Below, piece by piece: positions 2,051 through 13,520 of a stretch of 27,765 nucleotides of DNA (position 1 is its first letter; each line of letters opens with the position of its first letter). The notes beneath the pieces are model-generated. The model was not told where the DNA came from, ran no database searches, and was given only the letters and a program-made list of their open reading frames with translations. The translations under genes and the position numbers were made by a program. Source of the stretch: a virus; IMG/VR virus record IMGVR_UViG_3300038552_000096, positions 1 to 27,765 of that record. One strand, 5' to 3'.

Positions 2051-2836
2051 CTACACCTGCCTCCCCAATGCGACAAGATGATAGGCCGTAGGGTCTTCCT
2101 GCACCGTGGTCGTTGCCGTGAAGTCGTAGACCTCCAACTCAACCGATGCCGGGTTTTGTGTAACCATCCGAACTGTCACGGTCTTCCAATCCGTGACCGC
2201 CGAGTTGGTGTTAGTCCTCTGGACGGAGGCCTGGACTGAGTAGCCAATGTCCGCGAAATCGTTGTCGAAGTTGAACCCCGCCCGCCCCGCCCCGACATCC
2301 GTCACGCTGGTCATGTTGTAGGAAGCGAGGATGTTTCCGGTCACGCCCGCCTTACACCACGCTTTCGGATGGCCGGGATGGAAGTGCTGACGCCCCGGCG
2401 TGACGAGCGAGGTCAGGCTGGTCCCCCCCTCCATCTCGGCTCGGGAGGCTATGATGCTGTTGGAGGGATACTCTCCGCCATTGGCATCATAGTGGTGCCA
2501 CTCGCCCTTGCTGTCGCAGACAAGGACCTCACCCGGAAGCAGGCTGGCCTTGACCAGCGTCTCGGTGTTGGTGCCGTCCTCGTGAGTGACGGTCACATCG
2601 CAGGAGGTCGAGGCGTGGTTGTTGCGGAGGTTGATGTGCTTGGCCCGACGCTGAATGCTGGCCCCAGGCGATCCCAGGATCGTCGTGGTTGTGGCCGTGG
2701 TGATGGAAGCGGTATTGGTGCGTCCCGGCGTGATCGTGCCCGCGTTGTTCTCGACGTAAGAGACGTGCGCCTCAATATCCGCCGCGGCGCTGGTGATGAC
2801 CCGGAGCAAGTCGGAGGTCCCGGCGAGATGTATCAT
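2051..2836 (-). CDS. Tail fibre-like protein, paralog 2
   Basis: 261 aa, collinear with both neighbours. I chose ATG at 2836, whose A is the last base of the upstream TGA (TGATG), with GGGAG 7 nt upstream; GTG at 2839 is a possible alternative. This choice makes the N-terminus (MIHLAGTSDLLRV) align with paralog 1. It carries the shared ENNAGTITPGRTN, RNNHAS, VTHEDGTNT, AEMEGGTS and PGRQHFHPGHPK blocks. The segment at 2362-2395 is identical at DNA level to 3153-3186 in paralog 1. Translation is probably coupled along the three genes. Role inferred as a receptor-binding or fibre subunit. Confidence 0.86.
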   Translation of the reverse strand: MIHLAGTSDLLRVITSAAADIEAHVSYVENNAGTITPGRTNTASITTATTTTILGSPGASIQRRAKHINLRNNHASTSCDVTVTHEDGTNTETLVKASLLPGEVLVCDSKGEWHHYDANGGEYPSNSIIASRAEMEGGTSLTSLVTPGRQHFHPGHPKAWCKAGVTGNILASYNMTSVTDVGAGRAGFNFDNDFADIGYSVQASVQRTNTNSAVTDWKTVTVRMVTQNPASVELEVYDFTATTTVQEDPTAYHLVALGRQV

Positions 2837-3627
2837 CACTGATCTCCCAGGGCCATTGCGTACCAGGAGTACGCATCTTCCTGGACGTGCGTTGTGGCCG
2901 TGCCGTCATAGACCTCGATCAGGAAGGAGCCTGCGGCCTGCGTCGCGTTTCGGATATTGGAGTATTTCACATTCGTCGCCGAGAGCGATGTCGAAGGCCG
3001 CTCTACTGTTGCGGAGATGGCATAGCTGGTGTCGGAGAAGTCGGTCGCAATGGTGAAGGTCGTCAGGCCAGCCCCGCCGTCGGTGATGCTGGTGATGTTG
3101 TAGGCCCCAACGATGAACGGCCCTGACTGGACGAGGCGAACGGCACACCATACTTTCGGATGGCCGGGATGGAAGTGCTGACGCCCTGGGGTGACGCCGA
3201 CGATCAAGCTGGACCCTGCCTCCATCTCGGCTTGCGTCGCCACGGCGACCGCGGGATGGTACTCCGCCCCGTTCACGTCGAGGTGATGCCACTCGCCCCG
3301 GCTGTCCATTTCCAGCGTCTCGCCCGCGAGCAAGGGCACCTTTATCAGAGAGACGGTATTCGTCCCGTCCTCGTGGGTAACAGTGACATCGCACGCCTGA
3401 GAGCCGTGATTGTTCCGCAGACTGAGGGCGGTGACGCGGCGTTGGACGCCCGACGCGGGAGAGCCCACGACCGTTGTGGTCGTGGCCGTCACGATAGAGG
3501 CCGTATTGGTTCTGCCAGGGGTGATCGTGCCCGCGTTGTTCTCGACCCAACTGGCGTGAACCTCGATGTCGGCCGCGGCCCCGGTGACGACTCGGATCAG
3601 GTCGCTCGTGCCGGTGAGTTGGAGCAC
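2836..3627 (-). CDS. Tail fibre-like protein, paralog 1
   Basis: 263 aa. It starts with GTG at 3627, 3 nt after the stop of the small Cys-rich gene; no strong Shine-Dalgarno is seen, so it may depend on upstream translation. Domains by eye: an N-terminal beta-rich half (residues 1-125, with DIEVHASW at 20-27 and VTVTHEDGTNT near 81-91) and a C-terminal half beginning at AEMEAGSS (133-140), with HFHPGH at 151-156. HxHxxH-type motifs bind metal in some phage fibre tips (T4 gp37 uses HxH iron sites), but here that is only an analogy. The product is probably part of an oligomeric fibre. Confidence 0.86.
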   Translation of the reverse strand: MLQLTGTSDLIRVVTGAAADIEVHASWVENNAGTITPGRTNTASIVTATTTTVVGSPASGVQRRVTALSLRNNHGSQACDVTVTHEDGTNTVSLIKVPLLAGETLEMDSRGEWHHLDVNGAEYHPAVAVATQAEMEAGSSLIVGVTPGRQHFHPGHPKVWCAVRLVQSGPFIVGAYNITSITDGGAGLTTFTIATDFSDTSYAISATVERPSTSLSATNVKYSNIRNATQAAGSFLIEVYDGTATTHVQEDAYSWYAMALGDQ

Positions 3628-4797: not shown

Positions 4798-5657
4798 CAA
4801 ACCTCCTCTACGGTGACGAGTGTCTTCCCTCTCGGGACTTCGATGCGAACCGGAATGGGCTCCGTCACTGGCGGAGGAGGCGGCTGCACCTCACCCCAAA
4901 TGCGAGTGTACGCCGAAAGCCGCATGTAGGTCAAATCCACACGCGGGTCCAGGTAGATCGGGCGGGTGATCGGGTAGACGATGCCTCCCGAGGATAGCTG
5001 CCACGCCTCGACATTCGCGATGAGGACCTTCGAGGTCCCCATGTACGGGGTGAAGTTGTTGGAGATCGGGAGCTTGCTGTCCACCTCCTCGAAGCTCCAG
5101 GCCACGCGCCATGTGCCGTTCGGGTTCTGGACGATGTGGACGTAGTGCGCCCACCAAAACTTCTCCTCGTTCTCCCACCCATGAACGATATTCCCGCTCC
5201 ACCACCAATCGGCGCTGTAGAGCCAGACTTCGACGCCGGGCCATTCTCTGCGGATCGCGGCCAGGAGATCGCGAATATGCTTCGTGACCTCTGCGGGTGT
5301 CTTGCCGTTGGCGATCTCGCAGTCCAGGACGATGAGCTTCGGCTTCCTCCCATCGAGGCCCGGCTTCCACCAGGAATTGAGGATGGTGCTGATGGAGATG
5401 CCCGGCGAGGCGAAACCGTAGATGGCCGTCTTGTACCCGACCTCCAGCGCCCCGTCGTAGTTGTACTGGAAGTCCCAATCCGGCCCACCCTTGTTGCCCG
5501 CGACGCGGACGAAGATGACTTTCACCTCGGGATGCTGCGCCGCGGTCTCGGGCCAGGGGATGCGGCCCTCCTGCCAATTGGGCTTGGAGTAGGTCTTGTT
5601 CTGATAGATCGCAACGTCATACGCCTTTACGAGTTCAGCCAACGCGGGCCAGGGCAT
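4797..5657 (-). CDS. Endolysin, GH25-type muramidase
   Basis: 286 aa from ATG at 5657, with AAGGAG 7 nt upstream; the in-frame extension upstream lacks such a site. The fold signature of glycoside hydrolase family 25 is visible: AYDVAIYQ near the N-terminus (Asp14), VIFVRVAGNKGG at 48-58, and the catalytic-type LDCE motif at 111-114 (Asp112, Glu114) after KPKLIV. WLYSADWWW follows at 145-153. These enzymes cut the N-acetylmuramic acid to N-acetylglucosamine bond of peptidoglycan. The C-terminus has a PPPPP linker (about 260) and a short basic/hydrophobic tail without a recognised wall-binding domain. No signal peptide, so export would depend on the adjacent holin. Confidence 0.85.
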   Translation of the reverse strand: MPWPALAELVKAYDVAIYQNKTYSKPNWQEGRIPWPETAAQHPEVKVIFVRVAGNKGGPDWDFQYNYDGALEVGYKTAIYGFASPGISISTILNSWWKPGLDGRKPKLIVLDCEIANGKTPAEVTKHIRDLLAAIRREWPGVEVWLYSADWWWSGNIVHGWENEEKFWWAHYVHIVQNPNGTWRVAWSFEEVDSKLPISNNFTPYMGTSKVLIANVEAWQLSSGGIVYPITRPIYLDPRVDLTYMRLSAYTRIWGEVQPPPPPVTEPIPVRIEVPRGKTLVTVEEV

Positions 5658-6069
5658 TGCGTCTCCTTTCCTCGGGTGCGCAGATCGACCCATCCGTTTT
5701 CAGGATGCCGAGTTCCCGCGCGAGCATTCGGAGCAAGGTGCGCGTCTCGTCGGGGGTGAGATCGACCAGCATCTTTCCCGCCAACGAGAGAAGGTCGTCC
5801 TTCTCCGCCTGGGCCTCGGTCAAGACCCTCGACTGCTCGGCAGTGAGGGCCTTGGGATCGTGCCGCTCAACGATAGCCGACAGGCCCTCCGCGGGAACGG
5901 TGTCGGGGACGATGATCTCGATGCCCGGACCCGGAAAGCGGAAGGCGCACTCGCTCACGCGCTCCATCTCTCCGCCCAGGCTGACCTCCCGCTCCAGGAA
6001 GGGGTAGGCGGAGAGGATTTCCTGGTAGAGCAAGCTCGGGTTGCAGTCCTTGTCGAAGTGGTACTTCAT
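5635..6069 (-). CDS. Accessory tail-region protein, unknown function
   Basis: 144 aa, ATG at 6069, 3 nt after the stop of the fibre-like gene, with AGGTG 6 nt upstream. The 3' end overlaps the endolysin start by 23 nt. The N-terminal part (MKYHFDKDCNPSLLYQEI) is mixed; the middle carries VPAEGLSAIVERHDPKALTA, followed by a helical region. An IVERHDP-like segment also occurs in small proteins encoded near phage fibres, so fibre assembly is a guess. No catalytic motif, membrane segment or signal peptide was seen. Confidence 0.75.
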   Translation of the reverse strand: MKYHFDKDCNPSLLYQEILSAYPFLEREVSLGGEMERVSECAFRFPGPGIEIIVPDTVPAEGLSAIVERHDPKALTAEQSRVLTEAQAEKDDLLSLAGKMLVDLTPDETRTLLRMLARELGILKTDGSICAPEERRRNALARVG

Positions 6070-6072
6070 CGT

Positions 6073-6621
6073 TCACCTGTAGCGGAAAACGGCGAAGACG
6101 GCGCTGGTCAGGTTGAGATTGATCCCGGAAGTCTGCTTCACATAGGCCGCATTCCATCCGGTCGGCGTCTGCAACCGCCTGTAGTGGAAAAAGGGCAGGC
6201 CGGTCTCCTCTCCGCTGACCGGGGGCAGACGAGTGAGGCGCTGGCTCGTGTCCGAATGATACCAGCCGCACTCGCGATAGCCATTGGCGTTGGCCTCGAA
6301 GGTGCAGGAGAGGTAGATGAAGAACGTCTGCGCCTTGGTGCCGTCAAGGAAGACGATGCGATCCGGGTCGGCCCAGGTGTTCGAGCCATTCACGATCCCG
6401 AGGCCGAGATCAGCCGTGCAGCCCAGGGCGAAGTCGAAGATGATCGGCGTCGCCACGCCGCTTGGGATCGACTGAGGCGTGAACATGCACAGCGCCCCGG
6501 TGTCCCGCGGGGTCTCGGCGCGATCCTTGAGATCGGCAACCGAAAGCTCCAGCTTCTTGACCCGATCAATAAGCTGCGCGGTTGGATCGAGCATGGGATC
6601 GACGAGAGCCGGGGCTACCAT
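6073..6621 (-). CDS. Fibre/receptor-binding-like protein with N-terminal coiled coil
   Basis: 182 aa. ATG at 6621 lies inside the end of the hub gene (7-nt overlap), with GAGGA just upstream. Residues 12-37 form a short coiled coil (LIDRVKKLELSVADLKDRAE), a common trimerisation stalk. From about residue 45 the sequence is beta-rich (FIYLSCTFEANANGYRECGWY ... SGINLNLTSAVFAVFRYR), which resembles the small C1q/TNF-like head domains on phage fibres. It follows the hub gene directly and precedes the lysis genes, a usual place for a tip or fibre subunit. Assignment rests on architecture and context. Confidence 0.72.
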   Translation of the reverse strand: MVAPALVDPMLDPTAQLIDRVKKLELSVADLKDRAETPRDTGALCMFTPQSIPSGVATPIIFDFALGCTADLGLGIVNGSNTWADPDRIVFLDGTKAQTFFIYLSCTFEANANGYRECGWYHSDTSQRLTRLPPVSGEETGLPFFHYRRLQTPTGWNAAYVKQTSGINLNLTSAVFAVFRYR

Positions 6622-13017: not shown

Positions 13018-13520
13018 CTATTTCCCTCGATGGGCGCGGGAGTGCTTGCCTTCTTCGTCGAGGCAGATCAGGTGCGAGGAGATCGTGCCGAGGTCCTCAT
13101 GCACAAGGTCGGAGGGCCTGCAATGGTAGACATCCCGGCACAGGATCAGTTCGATGTACTCCCAGGGTGCCGGAGCATCGGCCCATAGATGCCCCACCAC
13201 CCCGGCCCTCAGTTTCCCGCGGCCGTCCCCGGTACTGAGGCGAAGGTTGCCTCGATGCTCTTGCGCAGGGCCGCGATCATCTCCGGGAGAGCCGCAATGG
13301 GGAGTTTGTCGATGCCGCCCTCGATGGCGCGGTCGAAAATCTCCGTGATCTCATTGAGCTTCACCGCCGCGGTTGCTTCTTTTCGGGGTGCGCCACATTT
13401 CGGGCAAGTCTCCCCGGCGTAGGTTTCCCCGCACTTGCAGATGACGTTGGCCGATCTGTCGAGGGTCTTGAGGTCTCCCCAAGTGAAGCTATCGCTTCGC
13501 ACCTTCAATTCGATGTCCAT
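13018..13520 (-). CDS. Tail assembly chaperone GT, made by -1 frameshift
   Basis: The overlapping downstream frame (13018-13212) is open and in the -1 frame relative to the G gene, with no good ribosome site of its own (its first GTG is at 13200). At 13212-13218 (minus strand) is GGGAAAC, a canonical X-XXY-YYZ slippery heptamer in the correct register, with the G stop TGA immediately after it. Slippage gives a 167-aa product: 103 residues of G plus 64 (LRAGVVGHLW ... ELILCRDVYHCRPSDLVHED ...). In lambda and many siphoviruses G and GT are made this way, from GGGAAAG in lambda, and chaperone the tape measure. Location between major tail protein and tape measure fits exactly. Confidence 0.8.
13209..13520 (-). 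CDS. Tail assembly chaperone G-like protein with zinc-ribbon motif
   Basis: 103 aa, ATG at 13520 with GAGGAG upstream. It follows the major tail protein and precedes the tape measure, the standard place of the first tail chaperone. The C-terminal half is helical (NEITEIFDRAIEGGIDKLP; MIAALRKSIEA). Unusual for the family as I know it, residues 28-42 hold CKCGETYAGETCPKC, a CxC-x8-CxxC knuckle expected to bind zinc. The last codons are GGA AAC TGA within the slippery site, so termination yields G and slippage yields GT. Confidence 0.82.
   Translation of the reverse strand: MDIELKVRSDSFTWGDLKTLDRSANVICKCGETYAGETCPKCGAPRKEATAAVKLNEITEIFDRAIEGGIDKLPIAALPEMIAALRKSIEATFASVPGTAAGN
13212..13218 (-). 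promoter_or_regulatory. Programmed -1 ribosomal frameshift site GGGAAAC
   Basis: On the minus strand the zero-frame codons are GCG GGA AAC TGA, so the heptamer G-GGA-AAC is read in the phase required for simultaneous -1 slippage to GGG-AAA. The new frame then runs 64 codons to a stop at 13018. The stop codon follows with no spacer. No obvious pseudoknot was recognised by eye. Confidence 0.8.

Follow-up and report, generated by a model that had tools for sequence, protein, structure and literature searches.

A conserved candidate −1 frameshift site abutting a stop codon in a phage tail assembly chaperone gene

What could a stop codon be doing directly behind a slippery heptamer? G/GT frameshifting is among nature's most frequent recoding events, and its best-known case, lambda, has the stop several codons away from the slip site and no evident stimulator. 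The tail assembly chaperone frameshift of lambda G/GT, with its counterparts in tailed phages, was reportedly described by Xu, Hendrix and Duda in 2004; these −1 frameshifts have since been reviewed (PMC5009743). The 27.8-kb record of an uncultivated virus that we analyse here (the whole stretch of 27,765 nt is called the window) carries the heptamer GGGAAAC immediately before the zero-frame stop of a chaperone-like gene, and two questions follow; is this a frameshift site, and if so, why is the stop so close? By comparison with lambda, the signal found in the family to which this locus belongs is compact and rich.

The locus and its slip site

The window's structural genes all lie on the minus strand, a point absent from the sequence-only reading that had singled out the site, and run in the order terminase, portal, capsid, major-tail-like protein, G, T (in the −1 frame), tape measure and more tail genes (Table 1). 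The position of G and T between the major-tail-like gene and the tape measure gene is that of lambda G/GT. Homologues of the major-tail-like protein are found at the same place in loci L007, L010, L012, L013, L017, L023 and L025, and the gene has no PHROG match of its own; likewise, the chaperone proteins of the window match no Pfam or PHROG chaperone family. Among the relatives, L023 has the major-tail-like protein in two tandem copies upstream of the chaperone gene (2603-3497), and in L017, unlike the others, ∼1.1 kb separates the end of T from the tape measure gene (5254-6377).

Table 1. Features of the putative frameshift locus in the window
Feature	Position	Strand	Remarks
Major-tail-protein-like gene	13992-13543	minus	directly upstream of G; assigned by position/synteny
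G-like tail assembly chaperone ORF, zero frame	13520-13209	minus	103 aa; ATG start, TGA stop
Slippery heptamer GGGAAAC (G_GGA_AAC, zero frame)	13218-13212	minus	in phase
Zero-frame stop TGA, zero spacer	13211-13209	minus	directly after heptamer
Spacer TGAGGG, heptamer to hairpin	13211-13206	minus	6 nt; contains stop codon
T extension, −1 frame	13212-13018	minus	64 residues (LRAGVV...HRGK) + TAG; would complete gpGT of 167 aa
Putative stimulatory hairpin	13205-13162	minus	8 + 9 bp; −33.7 kcal/mol
Hairpin parts	5' arm 13205-13188, loop 13187-13180, 3' arm 13179-13162	minus
Tape measure protein	13017-10675	minus	GTG start; adjoins T end; PHROG phrog_58, E 4.8e-20; Pfam TMP_3

The earlier description of the site as GGGAAAC and then a stop is correct, the minus strand reading GCG GGA AAC TGA from 13221 to 13209, and so is its 64-residue −1 extension; read from 13218, the −1 frame gives GK and then those 64 residues before it reaches TAG at 13020-13018, adjoining the tape-measure ORF. 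The next zero-frame stop lies 20 codons further on. Readthrough of the TGA was considered and rejected, as the zero frame stops after those 20 codons and T is in the −1 frame; transcriptional slippage was rejected as well, there being no long enough homopolymer run in the window.

How much can be read from the letters of the site? The string GGGAAACTGA occurs once in the window (0.04 expected), whereas GGGAAAC alone occurs six times (3.9 expected) and is not rare, so that the heptamer letters alone prove nothing. The background set was every distinct end of a reading frame with 100 or more open codons in the loci gathered, 2,393 ends altogether; XXXYYYZ stands directly before the stop at 26 of them, 19 of these being at tail-chaperone genes, and at ∼0.3% of ends elsewhere. 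Single cases of a heptamer beside a stop, with an unused −1 frame, do therefore arise by chance, but T, the heptamer phase, the stop adjacency and the hairpin are conserved over the family, and we regard a chance origin of the site as hardly credible.

Conservation of the slip site and the adjacent stop

Relatives with a conserved T domain in the −1 frame were reached via the upstream gene and the tape measure gene, the G protein alone having retrieved no usable relatives as a query against viral contigs and GenBank phages. A profile was built from eight T domains, after which 130 viral contigs matched and 80 were kept. The search pattern, a motif around LILCRDVYH, is distant from the slip site and hence imposed no direct selection on the spacer. 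In the family members examined, the frame of T is −1 with respect to that of G. Beyond these contigs T is scarce; genome contigs scanned with the T profile gave nine pattern matches and no confirmed case, there is no recognisable T in GenBank phages (50,697 records), PHROGs or Pfam, and BFVD holds one uncharacterised phage protein of 49 aa that is 47% identical to T. An AlphaFold model of T is all-helical (pLDDT 95), with no match to its fold in the PDB, and its first helix starts at the slip-site lysine; this modelled helix start may explain the leucine codon CTN that follows the site in most members.

An in-phase XXXYYYZ lies inside the overlap in 30 of 32 T clusters (70% identity), at a varying distance from the stop. 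The stop follows immediately in 16 clusters, or 54 of 84 loci, and comes one codon later in five clusters and two or more codons later in nine; two clusters, one of them L108, have no perfect heptamer. The zero spacer, which the sequence-only reading had presented as a notable variant, is real and is the commonest state within the family. Zero-spacer heptamers comprise GGGAAAC, AAAAAAC, CCCAAAC, GGGAAAA and CCCAAAA, their stops are TGA, TAA and TAG, and across the slip sites at this junction XXX is GGG, AAA, CCC or TTT, the three X bases changing together. Comparison of the loci shows the adjacency of the stop to be kept while the words of both heptamer and stop change. The heptamer and the −1 frame, on whose conservation the earlier reading had made its claim partly depend, are both conserved over the family, and this conservation is the decisive evidence, at the level of sequence, for a frameshift site; together with gene order and the conserved −1-frame domain, the conserved heptamer strongly supports its assignment to the G/GT type.

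Could the adjacent stops be a by-product of the protein that T encodes? An adjacent stop needs NTR in the −1 codon, and the residue there is always hydrophobic, so that conservation of the residue might by itself yield stops. We therefore computed the stop frequency expected from the observed −1 residue pair under each contig's own codon usage. The expectation is 6.4 stops in 18 representatives and 16 are seen, with P ∼2e-7 if clusters are independent, an optimistic value because clusters share ancestry. Some codon choices are individually unlikely by usage, for example CTG AGG in the window (0.07) and CTA AGG in L050 (0.03). With coarser clustering at 55% identity most clusters merge. A tree of T by spacer state requires 12 changes, as against 13.9 in shuffles, with too few columns in the alignment, and the least number of changes forced by well-supported branches is two.

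T is not tied to one kind of G. At least two G families precede T and its slip site, and hhalign detects no homology between them (probability 2.9); one is short and includes the window, the other has the motif VQGEGSYV...WNWVDD. Locus L009 has a third G type with a divergent −1 extension, AAAAAAC directly before TGA and a strong hairpin, and L025 has AAAAAAC before TAG with a hairpin at z −5. These cases bear on a reading without any part for frameshifting, namely that the adjacent stop just ends G, was fixed early, and has been kept since its loss would add foreign residues. The 20 codons to the window's next zero-frame stop speak for that reading, as does the poorly resolved T tree, since shared ancestry is possible at coarse clustering. 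However, adjacency is kept in L017, L038, L046, L051 and L103, where the next zero-frame stop is just 3-4 codons off, and it is present in the two non-homologous G families, with the third in L009, and in unrelated Arthrobacter phages. On balance we think a mere clean end for G unlikely, while giving it more weight than any other rival.

The hairpin and candidate roles for the stop

A strong hairpin, absent from the earlier reading, follows the window's heptamer (z −3.07, none of 200 shuffles being as good; z −2.90 against synonymous recoding), its stable stem starting at a distance inside the ∼5-9 nt range of classical −1 signals. For zero-spacer representatives, measured in a 52-nt window 4 nt after the heptamer, the mean z is −2.96 and 81% fall below −2; the family signal peaks exactly after the slip site and is ∼0 at other offsets within 300 nt. 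Against recoded sequences that keep the T residues but draw their synonymous codons at random, z averages −2.88 (P 8e-6). The hairpin is stronger than its synonymous recodings, which argues that it has been selected beyond protein coding. Family stems mostly begin 4-7 nt after the heptamer. RNAalifold gave no consensus structure over the family, Rfam gave no match, and the pairing register of the window holds for 55% of cells (33-47% when slid); the stems slide instead of keeping one column register, covariation within one register is weak, and support for the hairpin therefore rests on per-sequence energies. Two zero-spacer loci, L046 (z 0.74) and L052 (z −1.0), have no convincing hairpin. 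A search for a Shine-Dalgarno stimulator upstream found nothing beyond a shallow, wide dip in anti-SD energy.

The hairpin also bears on re-initiation, in which termination at the TGA would be followed by a new start at a −1-frame GTG close to position 13200, giving T as a separate protein. The window does have GTG GTG 8 nt after the stop and a GTG-started ORF at 13200-13018. Yet 4 of 16 zero-spacer representatives have no ATG, GTG or TTG in the stretch and only five have an ATG, conservation of the heptamer would be unexpected, and the hairpin would bury the start; we consider re-initiation very improbable.

The reading that we prefer, and hold with considerable confidence, is that heptamer, stop-containing spacer and hairpin form a cassette for programmed −1 frameshifting, by which one gene yields two tail chaperones. 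Frameshifting itself is well supported by sequence comparison; that slippage takes place, its rate, and the part played by the adjacent stop are inferred. Against the cassette, XXXAAAC is a weaker slip site than XXXAAAG on E. coli ribosomes, which may not be those of the host. In the proposed mechanism, a ribosome would decode GGA-AAC with the hairpin at its mRNA entry and be stalled by it; the stem starts 12 nt downstream of the first base of GGA (with GGA in the P site), and in bacteria a stem-loop placed 11-12 nt from the P-site codon blocks both the A site and translocation (PMC7282821). A fraction of ribosomes would then re-pair one base back, GGA to GGG and AAC to AAA, and continue with CTG AGG GCC in the −1 frame, while those still in frame would reach the TGA at once and leave. 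Most ribosomes would make gpG of 103 aa and a minority gpGT of 167 aa.

What, then, is the role of the stop? The earlier reading had termination and slippage competing at the same site, which is plausible by analogy with bacterial work on an engineered HIV site, whose frameshifting RF2 abolished (PMC4373837), and competition between release factor and slippage at one codon may also set the gpGT:gpG ratio. The hairpin points to a further reason, or a different one, for where the stop stands, in that non-slipping ribosomes would end before the hairpin. To our minds the likeliest role, at about an even chance, is that ribosomes terminating before the hairpin leave its fold intact for the one behind and end G cleanly. 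In SARS-CoV-2, removing the zero-frame stop or moving it away lowered frameshifting, weaker initiation rescued part of the loss, and the authors put the effect down to trailing ribosomes that find the element unfolded (PMC8168617). A rule of stop before stem fits the same idea of fold protection in a bacterial system; a strong hairpin is present in 18 of 21 representatives with a spacer of zero or one codon and in 3 of 9 with a longer one (Fisher P 0.008), the heptamers of the long-spacer members being the least certain in this comparison. Since L046, L052 and the Arthrobacter phage Kaylissa lack a convincing hairpin, protection of the hairpin cannot cover every case, and Kaylissa, with its zero spacer, indicates that it is not the sole possible reason for the stop.

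A different role would be termination-coupled slippage, in which an A-site stop would itself supply the pause, peptidyl-tRNA-Asn would slip from AAC to AAA, and the output of gpGT would depend on release-factor supply, making the site a −1 analogue of prfB. Stop adjacency is conserved with all three stop codons, and L108 keeps AAC directly before TGA in an imperfect ATCAAAC (1498-1507), with YYYZ and stop retained and XXX lost, as if only the P-site tRNA slips. The engineered HIV site with a stop as its intercodon was RF2-sensitive in bacteria, which places the stop in the A site before slippage, but the stop lowered frameshifting in that same work (PMC4373837). In pea enation mosaic virus, changing a nearby stop to sense drastically cut frameshifting (PMC5009743). 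Against such coupling, five clusters have the stop one codon on, outside the A site during YYZ slippage, and nearly every cluster keeps three identical bases at XXX, a requirement that slippage at the P site alone would not impose; we find the idea doubtful. The degenerate site of L108 nevertheless offers a natural test of P-site-only slippage. We are equally sceptical of a bolder view that makes the stop an active part of the signal; termination would spare and cooperate with the hairpin, the gpGT:gpG ratio and tail assembly would follow release-factor supply and ribosome traffic, and the cassette, travelling with T, would have become attached to two or more unrelated G proteins.

To our knowledge, the role of the stop has so far been studied mainly on HIV constructs and coronaviruses. 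The family offers natural bacterial variants, with spacers of 0, 1 and 2 codons, with TGA, TAA and TAG, and with a hairpin or none, and these could test whether the zero-frame stop acts by competing with slippage, by stimulating it or by protecting the hairpin.

Known recoding sites and the G proteins

Judged by its sequence layout, the window locus has the architectural features of a lambda-type G/GT; like lambda, it has the gene order, two predicted products from one start, a −1 slip at XXXYYYZ and a long minority product. The lambda heptamer, however, is GGGAAAG, with the stop five codons on and no special downstream structure (z 0.33), whereas the window has a zero spacer and a strong hairpin. 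Some tailed phages apparently lack a stimulatory signal, and similarity among tail assembly chaperones is low (PMC5009743). Halovirus HCTV-1 G/GT shares the gene and the heptamer G_GGA_AAC (PMC5009743), but its stop lies nine codons downstream. Other annotated phages that we sampled have spacers of 3 (TIN4), 6 (D29 and Bxb1), 7 (TM4 and Bennie) and 1 codon (Yosif); Gingerbug has a single XXXYYYZ, 27 codons upstream, which may not be the one used. For comparison with these spacers, the authors of PRFect give a mean of 26 nt in SEA-PHAGES training data (PMC10885494). A further likeness is in the cultured Arthrobacter phages Kaylissa, Cyan and Reedo, whose chaperones are annotated as joined and which have GGGAAAC directly before TAG or TAA, as in the family; their T sequence differs from the family's, and Kaylissa has no hairpin (z 1.1). 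Phage D29 (L129) has a strong hairpin, z −4.1, directly after its slip site GGGGGAA, and Bxb1 has none.

RSV and BYDV have structured RNA downstream of their slip sites. As in the window, a stop is the codon immediately 3' of the −1 site (PMC4373837), but these are a retrovirus and a plant RNA virus, translated by eukaryotic ribosomes into gag-pol or polymerase products, whereas the window encodes a phage chaperone. In SARS-CoV-2 ORF1a/1b a zero-frame stop near the slip site raises frameshifting (PMC8168617); unlike that of the window, it stands five codons on from the slip site, within stem 1 of a pseudoknot, and is met by eukaryotic ribosomes. With prfB the site shares a stop codon at the recoding site and, probably, competition by termination, but prfB shifts +1, at UGA only, with a Shine-Dalgarno stimulator, whereas the family has a −1 phase, TGA, TAA or TAG, and a hairpin. 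A prfB-type switch (+1 slip, UGA, 5' Shine-Dalgarno) was accordingly rejected, given the −1 phase and the use of all stops. A literature search that covered few subscription journals found no paper on a stop directly after the slip site in phage tail chaperones. Stop-adjacent −1 sites are already known, from RSV and BYDV and also from annotated Arthrobacter phages. There is also a lesson for annotation, as the short reading frame behind a chaperone of this kind should be read as the end of a fusion protein and not as a separate gene.

Several observations concern the neighbouring modules. Loci L003-L006 are major capsid relatives of the window. In L005 and L006, whose capsid proteins are 53-56% identical to the window's, a single chaperone-like ORF stands directly before the tape measure gene with no room for T (L005, 13863-14225; L006, 9763-10116). 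Related capsids without the T extension indicate that head and tail modules have been exchanged, and, lacking a −1 extension, these loci are uninformative on the slip site. Elsewhere in the window, three tandem paralogues of 262-263 aa with 50-57% mutual identity occupy positions 3627-1257 on the minus strand. Finally, the window's G contains a zinc-ribbon-like insert, NVICKCGETYAGETCPKCGAPRKE (13448-13365, minus strand), that is missing from 11 homologous G proteins; the AlphaFold model of G (pLDDT 88) gives weak fold matches to zinc ribbons only, among them rubrerythrins, rubredoxin and Nop10.
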